The position numbers and the translations under genes are program-made. DNA of 29,322 bases from a virus. Below are positions 4,874 to 11,553 of this stretch, one piece after another. Position 1 is the stretch's first letter. Each line of letters starts with the position of its first letter. Location of the stretch: positions 1 through 29,322 of the IMG/VR virus record IMGVR_UViG_3300037042_002218; one strand, written 5' to 3'. The notes under the pieces were generated by a model. The model saw only the letters and a list, made by a program, of their open reading frames with translations, had not been told where the DNA came from and made no database searches.

Positions 4874-5027
4874 TTGGATCTAATTTTATTTCTTCTATTT
4901 TATTATCAATATAATTTTTTATATCTTCTTCTGTTGGTATCTTTAAGTTTCTTTCTTCCCCCTGAATATTCTTTACAATATCCCTTTTCATCTTTCTTCT
5001 CATTCTTCTTGTTGCTGTACTACTCAT
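4833..5027 (-). CDS. Small basic/acidic two-part protein, unknown
   Basis: A 64-residue protein with a very basic N-terminus (ATRRMRRKMKRD) followed by a helical acidic half (EEDIKNYIDNKIEEIKLD). It overlaps the sigma-like gene upstream by 8 bp and the 46-aa peptide downstream by 41 bp, so it belongs to the same polycistronic message. The basic head suggests nucleic acid binding. I do not recognise a family. The long overlap with the next frame is itself evidence that both frames are constrained. Confidence 0.65.
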   Translation of the reverse strand: MSSTATRRMRRKMKRDIVKNIQGEERNLKIPTEEDIKNYIDNKIEEIKLDPNVQLQETDTSISI

Positions 5028-5535
5028 TGTTATATCTTTTAAATGTATTATGTCTTACCTGTGATTTTGTTTCCTTTACATATCTTCCTATTGAGGGTAA
5101 TGTTATTCGTGTATCCACACTTACTTTCTTTAATGATCCAAGTACCATATACTTCTCAAATATTATCTTGTTGAACCAATTCACCTCCCCAAATTCTTCC
5201 TCCATTATCTCCATGAACCTATGTGATTCCATATCACTCTCTTGGTTCATTACCTGTATTGCTTCATTCAATTCAACTGTGGTGATATTACTTCTCTTAT
5301 GTTTCTTATAGAACGGTGAAGACTCATAACACCAATTGACCATCAACATCCTTATAATATAATACTTTATACTATTATCGTCAAGTTGTAATTTTAATTC
5401 TTTCTTATCATATAATTGAAGGACTACTTCGTGAAGTAATTCATACGCCCAATCATCATTCTTTGTGTATTTCTTTGCTATTGATAATAACAAGTAATAA
5501 TTATTGGTGATGTATTTTTCTATTTCAATCTTCAT
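5020..5535 (-). CDS. Sigma-70-family-like RNA polymerase sigma factor
   Basis: A 171-residue protein with the outline of a small (ECF-size) sigma factor. Residues 13-70 match region 2: LLLSIAKKYTKNDDWAYELL, then HEVVLQLYDK and an IKYYIIRMLMVNWCY segment ending in a basic patch (YKKHKR). Residues 120-167 look like region 4, with LGSLKKVSVDTRITLPSIGR as the helix-turn-helix core and a basic end (KSQVRHNTFKR). Sigma factors of this type occur in Bacteroidota phages, where they are thought to direct host polymerase to phage promoters. Its place at the top of the terminase operon, near a DNA-binding zinc protein, suits a middle or late regulator. Homology is remote, so a sigma-derived adaptor without promoter specificity is the alternative. 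Confidence 0.68.
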   Translation of the reverse strand: MKIEIEKYITNNYYLLLSIAKKYTKNDDWAYELLHEVVLQLYDKKELKLQLDDNSIKYYIIRMLMVNWCYESSPFYKKHKRSNITTVELNEAIQVMNQESDMESHRFMEIMEEEFGEVNWFNKIIFEKYMVLGSLKKVSVDTRITLPSIGRYVKETKSQVRHNTFKRYNNE

Positions 5536-6902: not shown

Positions 6903-7373
6903 TTGTTATGATTTATATAAATATATATAATTTTATTAGTAAATAAAAACTTCAACAGGTAATTTGTCAACGGGGCACAATTCGTTCTCCTATGGATTAT
7001 GAGATGATTCTCAACTTACCCAACAAGTTTCATAAGACCAGTGTATTGAATGTCCCCATATCTTACTTATACTTATTGACCTTTTTTATAGACGGTACGT
7101 TCCTCAACTAATCCACGTAGTTGGTATAATATCCACCGTTAAGACCCCTTCTGATGTACGGAAAATGACTAACGTATCTATCTTGTTATTCCTCCGGGGC
7201 GATAAACATCCTTTTTCTGTCAGATGTTCTATACATAATAAATACGAAAAATAATCCAAAAAGACAAAAAACTTATCAACTATTTTTTTTATTATATGTG
7301 GAAAAGTATCTGACCATAATTTTTTCCTTTTGAAAATCTTTCGTATATTTATTAATATAACAAAAAAATTACT
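6903..7373. promoter_or_regulatory. Divergent intergenic region with several hairpins
   Basis: 471 bp between the leftward terminase operon and the rightward small-gene operon, with no convincing gene. It looks less AT-rich in its middle than its flanks. Visible dyads are: TGAGA-TGAT-TCTCA near 6999-7012; ACGGT (7092-7096) pairing with ACCGT (7135-7139) around an inner CAACTA (7105-7110)/TAGTTG (7118-7123) stem; and AACATC (7205-7210)/GATGTT (7223-7228). CCCC near 7144 and GGGG near 7196 could pair over a longer range. This suggests structured leader RNA or a small RNA, plus promoters at both edges. A TTTTCCACA-like site (minus strand, 7297-7305) is a one-mismatch DnaA box. Confidence 0.5.
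6916..6925 (-). promoter_or_regulatory. Possible promoter -7 box for left operon
   Basis: Read on the minus strand the sequence is ATATATTTATA, resembling the Bacteroidota -7 element TAnnTTTG with the final G replaced, and the same box seen before several other genes here. It ends about 13 bp from ATG 6902. No clear -33 TTTG at the right distance was found. Confidence 0.35.
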
Positions 7374-7814
7374 ATGGCAACAGTTTATCACAACACAACT
7401 CATCTTGAGGGTAGGGAACTACAACAACGAATTGACAACGCTGAAGGTCAATTGGAACAGATCCAAGAATTATTTACTATATACAAGTCAATGACCCGAT
7501 GGGAGACAAGACGAAAATACATTGAACACTTCGGTCATATAGACGAAGCACAACCAGGAGCAAGGATTGATGCGTTGGTTGAGAAAGGTATTATATATAA
7601 GTCCACCGAAAAATGGAGGGAAGAAAAAGGAGCATATAATTTTGTATATAAATTATACCCAACTGATGGTACAATCCCTGAAGATTATAATAATAAAGTA
7701 CCAAAAATTATTGTACCTTTACAGTTCAATGAAGATGGTACGATTAACCTTGAAGCAACATCAGACATATTCATTAGTAAATTAAACAAACAAGATAAAA
7801 AATACAGTTTATGA
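7374..7814 (+). CDS. Hypothetical protein, possible winged-helix
   Basis: A 146-residue protein that opens the plus-strand operon. Residues 12-45 are a charged helix likely to form a coiled coil. Residues 45-115 have the order helix, helix, then ARIDALVEKGIIYKS and a beta hairpin ending VYKLYP, which reads like a winged-helix domain of the kind found in small phage regulators or replication accessories. The C-terminus is acidic. It is preceded by a TATATTTAT box about 32 bp upstream and overlaps the next gene by ATGA. The winged-helix idea is a fold guess, not a family assignment. Confidence 0.6.
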   Translation: MATVYHNTTHLEGRELQQRIDNAEGQLEQIQELFTIYKSMTRWETRRKYIEHFGHIDEAQPGARIDALVEKGIIYKSTEKWREEKGAYNFVYKLYPTDGTIPEDYNNKVPKIIVPLQFNEDGTINLEATSDIFISKLNKQDKKYSL

Positions 7815-8053
7815 GTACACCACGCATCCCGACCAAAGACGAAATAATAGTACGTCAGAGTCAATTAGAACGAGCAATTGAGATATACACCTTGATTGGT
7901 CAGAAACCTTCTGTACAGGAGATATGTAGATTATCCCAAGTCCTATCGGAGTTTATCTTCACATGGGATGAAAAGTCTGAAGCGTTAAAGAAATTTGACG
8001 CACACATCACAGAGAAATTGAAAAAAGATTTAGTAACCAAATTAACAAAGTAA
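7811..8053 (+). CDS. Hypothetical small helical protein
   Basis: An 80-residue, almost entirely helical protein (QSQLERAIEIYTLIG, SVQEICRLSQVLSEFIF, then a lysine-rich end KLKKDLVTKLTK). Its ATG overlaps the stop of the gene before as ATGA and it ends 1 bp before the next ATG, so the three genes are one transcription unit. I do not recognise it. Confidence 0.65.
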   Translation: MSTPRIPTKDEIIVRQSQLERAIEIYTLIGQKPSVQEICRLSQVLSEFIFTWDEKSEALKKFDAHITEKLKKDLVTKLTK

Positions 8054-8054
8054 T

Positions 8055-8537
8055 ATGAAACTAACTAACGAAGAAAAAAATCTAACAGTACACATCTTAG
8101 ATATGTACGTTGATAAACTAATTAAAAAAATAGATGGTCGTGAACCTTCACCAAAAGTTATGAGATGTGTTGATGAATTAGACACAATCAAATCTATTTT
8201 TATAAAATTTTTAGATGAACAATCTGAAACAGTAACAGGTGTTCTGACCATACCAACTGAACCTCGTACCATGGGGGACATATATAGTGAATTATCAAAC
8301 CACCCTGATTTTGTAGCCGGTTCTTATTATGATAAGGATAGTGTTATTGATATTATTGCTAATGAAATTGGAGATGATTATGATGATGATGATAAATTAT
8401 TTAAGGACGCTGAAGAAATATATAAAAATAACGCAGGACAAATATTTAAAAATATTGATAATGCTTATGACTATGGGATGGAACATTTACTTTTTTTAGA
8501 TGATTGTGATTTAACATTAGAAAAAAAAGTTGATTAA
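8055..8537 (+). CDS. Hypothetical acidic protein
   Basis: A 160-residue acidic protein. The N-terminal half is helical (LTNEEKNLTVHILDMYVDKL, then KVMRCVDELDTIKSIFIKFL). The C-terminal half is very rich in aspartate, including GDDYDDDDK at about 111-119, and ends in another helix. It is the last gene of the first plus-strand group and is followed by a 363-bp regulatory gap. Strongly acidic small phage proteins can be DNA mimics or host-enzyme inhibitors, but nothing here proves that. Confidence 0.62.
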   Translation: MKLTNEEKNLTVHILDMYVDKLIKKIDGREPSPKVMRCVDELDTIKSIFIKFLDEQSETVTGVLTIPTEPRTMGDIYSELSNHPDFVAGSYYDKDSVIDIIANEIGDDYDDDDKLFKDAEEIYKNNAGQIFKNIDNAYDYGMEHLLFLDDCDLTLEKKVD

Positions 8538-8540
8538 TAT

Positions 8541-8571
8541 TTTGACTTTTGGTAAAAGTTCATTATATTTA
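8541..8571 (+). promoter_or_regulatory. Bacteroidota-type promoter with internal dyad
   Basis: TTTG (8541-8544) and TATATTTA (8564-8571) are separated by 19 bp, matching the Bacteroidota sigma consensus TTTG-N(~19)-TAnnTTTG except for the last base. The spacer holds a perfect dyad, ACTTTT-GGT-AAAAGT (8545-8559), placed where a repressor or activator could bind. The expected transcription start falls near 8575-8579, at the beginning of the structured element that follows. Confidence 0.55.
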
Positions 8572-8574
8572 TAT

Positions 8575-8650
8575 AGAAGGGGTGGAGAATTTTTATTGTA
8601 GATTGCCATCTATGTAAGGTTAAGTTTGTTATACACCCACCCCTTCTTTT
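8575..8650 (+). ncRNA. Candidate small structured RNA
   Basis: An 11-bp perfect closing stem, AGAAGGGGTGG (8575-8585) with CCACCCCTTCT (8637-8647), encloses 51 nt. An inner hairpin TAGAT-TGCC-ATCTA (8599-8612) and a possible TGTA/TACA stem (8613-8616 and 8632-8635) lie inside it. The 3' strand of the stem runs into CTTTT. A promoter-like sequence places the start right at the 5' strand. Together this looks like a transcript of about 75 nt with its ends paired. The alternative is an elaborate terminator for the upstream genes or a leader attenuator for the gene at 8901. Confidence 0.45.
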
Positions 8651-8692
8651 ACTATGTGTTCTGATTTGGCTCTTATAAATAGATTTTCAACT

Positions 8693-8721
8693 CACCCCGT
8701 TTCTACGGGGTGTTTCATTTT
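8693..8721 (+). terminator. Rho-independent terminator
   Basis: Stem CACCCCG (8693-8699) and CGGGGTG (8706-8712) with loop TTTCTA, followed by TTTCATTTT. It lies downstream of the candidate RNA. The same loop sequence closes the terminator at 11575-11601, so the two are probably copies. Confidence 0.7.
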
Positions 8722-8738
8722 CAGGATGTTCTGAACAG

Positions 8739-8775
8739 AATATTGTCTGGCAAGAACATATTGCCAAACAATATT
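8739..8775. repeat. Large inverted repeat, copy 1
   Basis: Arms of 15 bp (8739-8753 and 8761-8775) built around AATATTGTCTGGCAA, with one mismatch and a 7-nt loop. It is preceded by the dyad TTCTG-AA-CAGAA (8729-8740). A close copy lies at 11615-11651. It may be a protein binding site or an RNA hairpin linked to the terminator just upstream. Confidence 0.7.
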
Positions 8776-8790
8776 GGTACGGGATCAGGA

Positions 8791-8860
8791 TGTGGATAAA
8801 CTGTGTATAACTTTTATTAAAATATATTTGGCTGGTAATTTAGGATATTCTAATTTTGTG
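8791..8860. other. Candidate replication origin with two DnaA boxes
   Basis: TGTGGATAA (8791-8799) is the exact reverse complement of the DnaA box TTATCCACA. TGTGTATAA (8802-8810) is that of TTATACACA, also a consensus TTATNCACA box. They share orientation and are offset by 11 bp, one helical turn. An AT-rich stretch (about 8811-8860) follows and could be the unwinding element. Flanking dyads and the inverted repeat add to an origin-like picture. Function is inferred; two boxes is fewer than in most bacterial origins. Confidence 0.45.
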
Positions 8861-8900
8861 TCTCATTAACGGGGAACAGCGTATCTGAACAGAAACAGTT

Positions 8901-9299
8901 ATGGAAGCAGTAATACACAGATTTATTAACTCAAACGGTTTTGAAATTATCATACCGAGAGTAGTTGACGAAGATTATCAACGTTCGGTTGATATGATGA
9001 ATCAACAAGGAGCACACGGTGGTATAGTACAAGAGGTTATTTGGAAAAGCAAAGACCCAAATTATGTATGGTCAGAAGATGTTTATTCACATCTATCATC
9101 TTTAATTATTGTTAAAGAACATATTAAAGCTAAAGACAGATTTGGTAAAAAAATTACATTAAAAAACCAAGAAGTTGCGTTGTATGATTATATACAAGGT
9201 TGTGGTTCAACAAATGAGTTTAAAAGAATGAGAGATGGTGCTCAAGCACTAATTGCCATTAAACCCGATTCAATAACAATTTTTCAATTTCAAAATTAA
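8901..9299 (+). CDS. Hypothetical protein
   Basis: A 132-residue protein, first gene after the signal-rich gap. It has a beta start (RFINSNGFEIIIPRV), a central segment with WKSKDPNYVWSEDVYSHLSS, and a basic region (IKAKDRFGKKITLKNQEV) before a predicted helical end. The dyad TCTG-AA-CAGA (8884-8893) lies 7 bp before its ATG and could be an operator. Downstream the next gene starts after 5 bp. I do not recognise a family. Confidence 0.62.
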   Translation: MEAVIHRFINSNGFEIIIPRVVDEDYQRSVDMMNQQGAHGGIVQEVIWKSKDPNYVWSEDVYSHLSSLIIVKEHIKAKDRFGKKITLKNQEVALYDYIQGCGSTNEFKRMRDGAQALIAIKPDSITIFQFQN

Positions 9300-9304
9300 A
9301 TAAA

Positions 9305-10249
9305 ATGAAAAGAAGAAGAAAATTTACTACTACAAAAAATAATCATAGTGGTATGTCAAGTAAAAAAGTTTCAAGTAGTTCTGAAATGAAAAAAATTGAA
9401 ACTGCACAGATGGAAAATTTCAAAGGACAAAAAATTGGTATTAATTTTGCCATTAAAATTCCTGATTTTGAAAAACCATTTACAGGTGCTGGTGTTTATC
9501 AATTAGATGGGTTTGATGATTTACATTCTCGTTTCTTAAAAAATCTTAAAGAAACTAAAGTTGAAAATGACTTTGATGGTAGTGACATTACTTGCACACA
9601 AATATTAATATATCAGTATATGAAAAGGTATATTGATGAAAATTTTGATGGTGAAGGTGTAAATTGTAGTGATGAATTTACTACTCAAATGGTTGAATTT
9701 TGTATGTCTTATTCAATGTTGGTAGATTTTGTACAAGAAAAAACTGAAGATAATTATAATAAGTACATAACATTGGAAATGACTTATACTAATGAGCCAG
9801 GGAAACAGAGAAAAAAGGTAAGTACAGAATGGGAAGTACATAGAACATTTGAGGAGTTTAGTAATAAAGGTGAAGAATTAATTAAAGTAATTAATCCTGA
9901 TTATGAGGATGTACATTTAATTTTCAATACCCATAATGAAGATAAATTTGAAGAAGATGTTGACCAAGTTAAAATTGTAGATGAACCAATTGATTATACA
10001 GTTGATGATATTGTAATTGTTGATGATGCACCTATTCCAATTTTAGGTCTTAATTATGAGATATTAACTAAATTGAAACACAGTATGACTATTCTTCAAG
10101 TTGGTCAGACCATCAAATTACCGAAGGACGATAGATTAAGAAGTTCCGTTTATCTATTAAACAAACAACATTTTTCAGACAAGCGTTTTTCAGTATATGA
10201 GATAAATGACAATTTTATTGTATTTCTTAATACCAAAAATAAAGAGTAA
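9305..10249 (+). CDS. Hypothetical protein with basic head and acidic body
   Basis: A 314-residue protein. The N-terminus is basic and polar (MKRRRKFTTTKNN, then a serine-rich stretch), which suggests a flexible nucleic-acid-contacting tail. The middle (about 45-200) is acidic with predicted helices. Residues 205-245 are very acidic (FEEDVDQVKIVDEPIDY, then VDDIVIVDD). The last 60 residues form a separate small domain with LQVGQTIKLPKDDRLRSSVY and FSVYEINDNFIVF; this resembles a short C-terminal domain I associate with other phage proteins, where a VGQ-type loop precedes two strands. No function can be assigned. Confidence 0.62.
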   Translation: MKRRRKFTTTKNNHSGMSSKKVSSSSEMKKIETAQMENFKGQKIGINFAIKIPDFEKPFTGAGVYQLDGFDDLHSRFLKNLKETKVENDFDGSDITCTQILIYQYMKRYIDENFDGEGVNCSDEFTTQMVEFCMSYSMLVDFVQEKTEDNYNKYITLEMTYTNEPGKQRKKVSTEWEVHRTFEEFSNKGEELIKVINPDYEDVHLIFNTHNEDKFEEDVDQVKIVDEPIDYTVDDIVIVDDAPIPILGLNYEILTKLKHSMTILQVGQTIKLPKDDRLRSSVYLLNKQHFSDKRFSVYEINDNFIVFLNTKNKE

Positions 10250-10251
10250 TT

Positions 10252-10292
10252 AATTTGGTGGGGGATGTATAATCCCCTACCTTTACTAAAAT
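10252..10292 (+). repeat. 41-bp hairpin repeat, copy 1 (5' leader)
   Basis: Identical to 10504-10544. It holds a 10-bp stem, GGTGGGGGAT (10257-10266) and ATCCCCTACC (10272-10281), with one G-T wobble and loop GTATA. The stem ends 19 nt before the ATG at 10301. It may be a 5'-leader element, or a terminator, although the T-run after it is weak. Confidence 0.8.
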
Positions 10293-10300
10293 AAAAAGTT

Positions 10301-10504
10301 ATGAAAAAAATAGAAATGACGGTTGAATGTAAGAACACAGGTCTATTAGTTATATACATTCTTTCTTGGGAAACTATTGATGAGTTAAAAGAAGAAGTTA
10401 AATATCTACACGATAGATGTATGTTGATTATGGAAAAAGGTTATTGGCATTGTGATGAAGAAACTTTAACCGAAGAAGAACACGAAATTATTTATTATAA
10501 TTAA
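10301..10504 (+). CDS. Hypothetical small protein between two hairpin repeats
   Basis: A 67-residue acidic protein (start MKKIEMTVECKNTGLLVIYI, then helix ETIDELKEEVKYLHDRCMLI and an acidic end ETLTEEEHEIIYYN). The short hydrophobic segment LLVIYIL is too small for a secure membrane helix. The gene sits exactly between two identical 41-bp hairpin leaders; its TAA (10502-10504) meets the first base of the second copy. That makes a leader-plus-gene cassette. Family unknown. Confidence 0.6.
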   Translation: MKKIEMTVECKNTGLLVIYILSWETIDELKEEVKYLHDRCMLIMEKGYWHCDEETLTEEEHEIIYYN

Positions 10505-10544
10505 ATTTGGTGGGGGATGTATAATCCCCTACCTTTACTAAAAT
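10504..10544 (+). repeat. 41-bp hairpin repeat, copy 2 (5' leader)
   Basis: Second copy of the hairpin leader: stem 10509-10518 with 10524-10533, loop GTATA. The stem ends 21 nt before the ATG at 10555. Perfect identity over 41 bp in non-coding DNA suggests recent duplication or strong constraint. Confidence 0.8.
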
Positions 10545-10554
10545 CAAAATATTT

Positions 10555-10647
10555 ATGTTAAGTATCCAACAAATGAAGGCGTTAAACATCTGTACAGAGT
10601 ATGTACGGTCTTATGAATCACTATTAAAACAATTAGGTAATGGGTAA
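10555..10647 (+). CDS. 30-aa peptide behind hairpin leader
   Basis: A very short frame, ATG 10555 to TAA 10645-10647, giving a 30-residue peptide (IQQMKALNICTEYVRSYESL as its core) that would form one amphipathic helix. Its ATG holds the same position relative to the hairpin leader as the gene at 10301, and its end overlaps the next gene by 8 bp. Both facts favour a real, translationally coupled gene, perhaps a leader peptide for the gene at 10640. Length alone makes this uncertain. Confidence 0.48.
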   Translation: MLSIQQMKALNICTEYVRSYESLLKQLGNG

Positions 10648-10882
10648 TATATTCAACGACCTAAACAAATTGGTCAATACAGTACAGAAGGTAGAAAAGA
10701 TACTGACACCAAAACGTACAAGAACTAAAACCATATCACTAACACAACAAGAAGTAAAGATGATTAGAGAATGGTTTATTGCAGGTGGAGATGTTGGTTT
10801 ATGGGAAAGACATAATATGACAGGTCACCCTACCAAACAGGAAATAGATCAACACAACAAGTTATATGAAAAATTAAAATAA
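10640..10882 (+). CDS. Hypothetical small basic protein
   Basis: An 80-residue protein with an N-terminal helix (FNDLNKLVNTVQKVEKIL), a basic turn (TPKRTRTKT) and a second half with LTQQEVKMIREWFIAGGDVG and WERHNMTGHPTKQEIDQHNK. The latter has the look of a small DNA-binding or kinase-inhibitor-like helical bundle, but I recognise no family. It overlaps the 30-aa peptide and ends 5 bp before the acetyltransferase-like gene. Confidence 0.62.
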   Translation: MGNIFNDLNKLVNTVQKVEKILTPKRTRTKTISLTQQEVKMIREWFIAGGDVGLWERHNMTGHPTKQEIDQHNKLYEKLK

Positions 10883-10887
10883 TAGTT

Positions 10888-11553
10888 ATGAAGGAAAAAG
10901 AAAAATCATATGAAGAAATTAAACAGGAGTATCTTAAAGACCCTGTTGCGTTTTTAAAAAACGAAAAGGAGATGTTTAATGATAGTATAGGTGGCCCTCC
11001 TGTACAGAAGGTGGTCTTCATTGACGACAATGAAATATTCGTTAAACTATCTCGTAACCTTGATTATTTTAAGGACAAGGGGTTTGTAATGTATGAGTTA
11101 TTAGTTGGCCCTATACATTCACAAGTAGAGGAAGTGGTGTACATATCAAATCGTATATCACTTGCGTTTCCAAAACAATCAGCACAAATAGCTTTGACTC
11201 CCGAAAATGATGGGATATGTATATCAAAGGTCATATTGAACCCTAATATGAAACAAAATTTAGGAGCAGGTACAGGAATTATGTTGTTGTTCTATATGTG
11301 GTTAATAAAAACATTAGGAGACTTTCCACCAATGTATCTTGAATGTGCGGGTAACATCAATTGGGGTGATAAGATAATACACTATCCATACTCAAAACAG
11401 ACAAAGTTTTTTAGAAAATTCGGATTTAGAGTAATAGAATTTGATAAGGGTGATGAAAAAGAAGGTGAGTCTAACTATTGTCAGATGAAGTTTTTCCCCG
11501 ATAAGTTTGACTTTGAGGAAGTAACAAAAGGTTTAACTACCAAAATGGGTTAA
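10888..11553 (+). CDS. GNAT-like N-acetyltransferase
   Basis: A 221-residue protein whose second half has GNAT features. A strand ICISKVILNPNMKQ leads into NLGAGTGIMLLFYMWLIKTL, which fits motif A (Q/R-x-x-G-x-G/A) that holds the pyrophosphate of acetyl-CoA. Later come YLECAGNINWGD and TKFFRKFGFRVIEF, matching the strand and the N-x-x-a-x-x-fY-x-k-x-GF ending of the fold. The N-terminal 60 residues are charged and helical. The substrate could be a host protein, tRNA or small molecule. It ends the plus-strand operon, just before the terminator at 11575. The fold call is moderate, as no close relative comes to mind. Confidence 0.58.
   Translation: MKEKEKSYEEIKQEYLKDPVAFLKNEKEMFNDSIGGPPVQKVVFIDDNEIFVKLSRNLDYFKDKGFVMYELLVGPIHSQVEEVVYISNRISLAFPKQSAQIALTPENDGICISKVILNPNMKQNLGAGTGIMLLFYMWLIKTLGDFPPMYLECAGNINWGDKIIHYPYSKQTKFFRKFGFRVIEFDKGDEKEGESNYCQMKFFPDKFDFEEVTKGLTTKMG

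Follow-up and report, generated by a model that had tools for sequence, protein, structure and literature searches.

We identified a structured RNA, encoded on the plus strand of an uncultured tailed phage, that almost certainly represents a real and new family of phage small RNAs, and we read it, with a probability of roughly 70%, as a small regulatory antisense RNA of a Bacteroidota phage that would block translation of an early gene, its transcription, binding, repressive effect and purpose being inferred. The computations revealed a conserved stem, an independent gene unit, linkage to two neighbouring protein gene families, here called T1 and T2, and a loop that matches the phage's own neighbouring genes. 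Loops and the starts of their own neighbouring genes match across the set, and an antisense RNA is the best reading of these observations.

In the window, by which we mean the whole 29,322-base stretch of phage DNA that was analysed, the minus strand carries the genes for terminase, portal, capsid and tail, and a cassette at 7374-11553 lies on the plus strand. The promoter and stem described in a first-pass annotation were both confirmed. The -33 element TTTTG (8540-8544) is followed by a 19-nt spacer and the -7/-10 element TATATTTAT (8564-8572), an arrangement that fits the consensus of a Bacteroidota-type promoter. At the predicted transcription start, AGAAGGGGTGG (8575-8585) pairs with CCACCCCTTCT (8637-8647) in a perfect 11-bp closing stem, referred to as P1, which encloses a U-rich and mostly unpaired loop of 51 nt (8586-8636), the proposed antisense region. 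Within the loop, UUGCCAU (8603-8609), with its conserved UGCCAU core, complements the start-codon sequence AUGGCAA of the gene at 7374-7814, and a second element, UUUGUUAUA (8625-8633), complements UAUAACAAA (7356-7364) in that gene's leader. An intrinsic terminator hairpin, CACCCCGTTTCTACGGGGTG, with a T-rich tail (8693-8712), all on the plus strand, is the likely 3' end.

Other parts of the annotation fared less well. The T-run said to end the stem is weak, the terminator being a separate element, and the suggested length of about 75 nt gives way to an inferred transcript that probably runs for about 140 nt to that terminator, in line with the terminators located 25 to 60 nt past the stem in nearly all relatives. 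The ACTTTT-GGT-AAAAGT dyad in the promoter spacer recurs only in L004, the nearest relative, and is probably fortuitous, and of the inner hairpins, TAGAT-TGCC-ATCTA is present in the window and not conserved across the family. The fold of a 78-nt stretch was only moderately unusual (z -1.4 against shuffles), and for 193 nt that included the downstream terminator z was -2.7, with 1 of 200 shuffles equally good. The window fold is thus modest on its own, and it is the comparison with relatives that places the observation far above chance.

About 55 distinct relatives of the RNA were found among viral contigs, the carriers besides the window phage being about fifty related uncultured phages, with one clear copy per record. 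The RNA was present in all 27 loci that spanned both flanking phage modules (near-duplicates included), about 20 of which had been sampled by the portal protein alone. The portal relatives displayed the same succession of promoter (TTTG-N18-21-TATATTTAT), stem, U-rich loop with UGCCAU, stem and terminator, and the stem began 9 to 15 nt past the first base of the -10 box, such that the alignment of promoter, start and stem pointed out in the annotation holds as a constant spacing across relatives. Furthermore, 22 distinct sites in related phages were picked by a -10-like box plus TGCCA[TA], with no stem required, and 20 of these had a GC-rich closed stem at a common offset, as compared with about 9 of 499 control boxes, 4 of which were family members with variant motifs. 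A wider scan with the promoter-plus-motif pattern gave a strong stem in 17 of 117 viral matches (one of which looks spurious) and in none of 117 matches in bacterial genomes.

Two covariance models recovered members outside their training sets, for example L067 and the record of L080. No Rfam family matched the RNA at gathering or relaxed thresholds, GcvB reaching 20.5 bits against a gathering score of 42, and BLAST searches against named phages gave no match. There was no covariance-model match in Nonlabens phage P12024S, the nearest named portal relative tested (27%), nor was a member found in the four bacterial genomes searched, where only part of the candidates were scored. No description of a small RNA of Bacteroidota phages was found in the literature that was searched.

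The sequence of P1 differs nearly everywhere among the relatives while the pairing is kept. Double changes were seen at 10 of the 11 pairs in a set of 22 sequences, and the covariation score was 0.713, compared with 0.230 ± 0.028 for shuffled alignments and at most 0.275 for slid registers. Since these members had partly been chosen for having the stem, the analysis was repeated on loci found via the neighbouring T1 protein, which yielded double changes at all 11 pairs and a score of 0.740 against 0.246 ± 0.027 for shuffles; this second set includes a few weak matches, and it was again the covariance model that chose and aligned its rows. Deviations in the core helix were G-U pairs rather than mismatches, as expected of an RNA. 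The covariation search across related phages that the annotation had named as a check thus came out in favour of a stem kept by compensatory changes. No support was obtained across the family for the inner hairpin P2 around UGCC, and UGCCAU is therefore probably mostly single-stranded; judged from the alignments, P1 is the sole supported structural element.

GCCAU is almost invariant among the distinct members, and UGCCAU is the complement of AUGGCA, with which 34 of 157 same-strand genes near the RNA start (22%), as opposed to 14 of 635 genes elsewhere (2%; odds ratio 12). Phage-wide there was no enrichment of AUGGCA starts, which appears only near the RNA. About a third of the RNA-bearing records had no AUGGCA neighbour within reach, and no convincing pairing partner was identified for L127, L119, L046, L062 and L386. 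For three loci of the window type with enough upstream sequence (L521, L534 and L536), the AUGGCA neighbour was among the strongest partners in each.

Several members carry a changed motif. The motif in L008 is UAGCCAU and its T2 gene starts with AUGGCUA, while a distant branch, L404-L409, has UCCCAU and an adjoining gene for a protein of 59 amino acids, with an AUGGGA start noted for L404 and L406-L408. In L404 and L406 no other start within reach had as strong an own-preference as this one, and the preference for the start of the 59-aa gene was weaker in L405, L408 and L409. The motif has drifted in L017, where a match of 12 bp with the T1 start of that phage is retained, and the seed is mismatched in L164, where mainly the leader pairs. 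It was also noted that the RNA copies in L055, L056 and L058 (about L055:13540-13625) are without UGCCAU and that their T1 neighbour starts with AUGGAA.

The pairing of each loop with the T1 and T2 starts of its own phage was compared with permuted assignments. Across 28 phages the own pairing averaged -15.5 kcal/mol against -13.3 ± 0.47 kcal/mol for permuted loops, a value reached in 0 of 20,000 permutations, and for 21 non-redundant phages it was equalled in 2 of 20,000. T2 alone gave 3 of 20,000 and T1 alone a weak own-preference (646 of 20,000). With fresh phages added, to a total of 38, z was -5.1 (0 of 50,000), and the ten fresh phages by themselves gave z -1.3 (p 0.10). The main test used the data from which the idea of a target had come, and related phage sequences are not independent, their shared ancestry making the p-values optimistic. 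Ten control conserved genes showed no own-preference (z -0.9 to +2.3), and the longest complement anywhere in the phage was not in excess of that for other loops. Typically a duplex is bipartite, with UGCCAU covering the start codon and a loop element 3' of it pairing with the leader. The leader duplex in the window is UUUGUUAUA/UAUAACAAA, and corresponding leader matches were seen in L008, L011, L177, L164 and L004; AUUGUUUUAUUG in L008 pairs with its own complement in the leader over 13 bp, L011 combines GUAUAUUG/CAAUAUAC in a duplex of 11+8 bp, and L015 forms a 13-bp duplex. The defining feature of a trans-encoded base-pairing sRNA, an unpaired region that complements the start of a target and covaries with it, was present, if not in every phage and with the above p-value in the fresh sample.

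The proposed target in the window is T2 (7374-7814, plus strand), which starts with AUGGCAACA and encodes a winged-helix-like protein of 146 amino acids. Its predicted fold had a pLDDT of 79 and, among PDB structures, weakly matched PadR/MarR-like ones (best E 4e-3). The translation initiation region that would be masked extends from -18 to +12 of the AUG (7356-7385, plus strand) in a duplex of -16.3 kcal/mol, which had the top own-preference among nearby starts and ranked 3 of 51 by energy. The start of a 953-aa tail gene in the window (AUGGCUAC) scored slightly better than T2 by energy, and T2 was first by energy among all starts in L004, L173, L008 and L015. T1 (7811-8053, plus strand), of 80 amino acids, belongs to the family linked to the RNA, and the window copy starts with AUGAGU, without a match to the loop. 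The T2 family proteins are about 150 and the T1 family proteins about 74 to 80 amino acids long, and in other branches T1 is a likelier target than T2. Neither was retained as the sole universal target, T1 on account of weak pairing evidence and T2 because several T2 genes start with AUGCCN or AUGAGU.

The proposed mechanism, in which transcription, binding and repression are inferred, would be as follows. A host-type RNA polymerase would start at about 8573-8575 and the RNA would end at the 8693-8712 terminator. Its first 11 nt would pair with 8637-8647, whereby the 5' end would be closed in a stem and a loop of about 50 nt held open, presenting UGCCAU as an anti-start-codon and, 3' of it in the window branch, the U-rich element as an anti-leader. 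The loop would then pair with the initiation region of an early gene on the same strand about 1 kb away. For the window the partner would be the winged-helix gene, contacted via AUGGCAA plus UAUAACAAA, and for other branches the neighbouring 74-aa T1 or the 59-aa gene. Such pairing would block ribosome binding and reduce the amount of early protein, probably limiting an early regulator.

An independent structured RNA whose UGCCAU or loop acts on host mRNAs, or binds a protein as a decoy, with the neighbour match being secondary, is an unlikely alternative. No single target is as conserved as the RNA, host targets can readily be envisaged given that AUGGCA is common as a gene start, and UGCCAU is kept in L127, L119 and L062 although neither T1 nor T2 starts with AUGGCA in these. 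Against it stand the preference of loops for their own T1 and T2 over those of other phages, seen with none of the ten control genes, and the joint change of motif and neighbour start in L008 and L404-L408.

The succession of promoter, structured RNA and terminator would also suit a cis-acting leader or attenuator, where stem and terminator control read-through into a downstream gene, and the four loci without a terminator of their own (L032, L185, L402 and L432) have a gene for a small hydrophobic (membrane) protein that begins a few nt past the RNA stem, for which the RNA may also serve as a leader. As a general explanation we consider this quite improbable, as the genes downstream of the RNA are unrelated among the relatives or absent, the RNA in many of them pointing towards the late operon's end without being followed by a gene on its own strand, and as the RNA lies upstream of T1 in L404-L409 and downstream of it in most others. 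A conserved downstream gene or function, expected of a riboswitch or attenuator leader, was not found among the relatives. With downstream genes that differ or are missing, the RNA is independent rather than a leader, and there is strong support for the independent small phage RNA suggested in the annotation from what marks such genes, namely a promoter at constant distance, a compensatory stem and an own terminator in nearly all relatives.

It was noted separately that a further candidate for a conserved structured leader (TCGCATCTCACATTATAACGACATTAAAGATTTTGAGGG...) precedes other phage genes in L065:4315-4440 (plus strand), in L058 at about 10650-10760 (minus strand) and at about 20 loci with ACATTAAAGATTTT; it had no Rfam match and is absent from the window. 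A conserved gene at 5020-5535 on the minus strand of the window weakly resembles sigma-70 region 2 (Pfam E 0.045) and possibly encodes a phage sigma factor.

DnaA-box-like TGTGGATAA sites, single or paired, are located at 8791-8810 in the window, just past the RNA terminator, with equivalents in L177, L103, L127, L131, L132, L163, L004, L076 and L397, and may mark a phage replication origin. That the RNA itself is part of such an origin, as a primer or through transcriptional activation, has still less to recommend it than a leader: the boxes occur in this position in about a third of the relatives, are often paired at 11-12 bp and reach about five times the background density within -300/+500, but no box lies within 500 bp in about half of the relatives, and a conserved looped UGCCAU that pairs with gene starts is unexpected of a primer. 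That the inverted repeat arose by chance, or is a palindrome acting at the DNA level (an operator, for example), could be argued only from the modest fold of the window alone and is practically ruled out by the double compensatory changes throughout, the G-U deviations in the core helix and the constant offset from the promoter.

Returning to the antisense RNA, we favour, with less assurance than for antisense action as such, an undescribed family with a clamp-and-loop scaffold, the loop of which is re-fitted during evolution to match the leader and start codon of whichever neighbouring early gene calls for control. If true, this would be a natural, retargetable start-codon antisense device, and since the motif changes in step with the target start, the predicted target is directly testable. 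The constant place of the RNA in every member examined, amid changing protein genes, points to a core control function, and such a device may belong to the core of a large group of Bacteroidota phages that are uncultured. Bacteroidota mostly lack Hfq, and the scaffold could show how antisense control works in phages with hosts that lack an obvious RNA chaperone.

Among known systems, plasmid copy-number antisense RNAs, of which RNAII of pMV158 is an example, are plasmid-borne and cis-encoded, which sets them apart from the window RNA, and resemble it as small antisense RNAs against a nearby gene. RNAII blocks translation of a replication gene (PMC4485353). The trans-encoded phage RNAs PreS of lambda and VpdS of VP882 act on mRNAs (PMC12197685). 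Both bind Hfq, and PreS targets a host mRNA and VpdS both host and phage mRNAs, whereas the matched partners of the window RNA are neighbouring phage genes. OOP RNA of phage lambda is short, has its own promoter and is antisense to the early regulator cII (PMC12197685). The window RNA shares with it the small size, the own promoter and, as proposed, an early regulator as the target. OOP RNA also has a terminator and lies near the origin. It is cis-antisense with perfect complementarity to cII and is not known to have a start-codon loop or a closing stem that is conserved. The sar RNA of phage P22 is likewise a small RNA, which blocks initiation of ant translation by pairing with the mRNA (PMC12197685), similar to the block of an early regulator proposed here. 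Unlike the window RNA, which is encoded elsewhere on the same strand as T1 and T2 without overlapping them, and whose pairing is imperfect and clamped-loop scaffold conserved, sar is cis-antisense, encoded opposite its target. By analogy, the window RNA most likely works like sar and OOP and, not being cis-antisense, is not a member of that kind.
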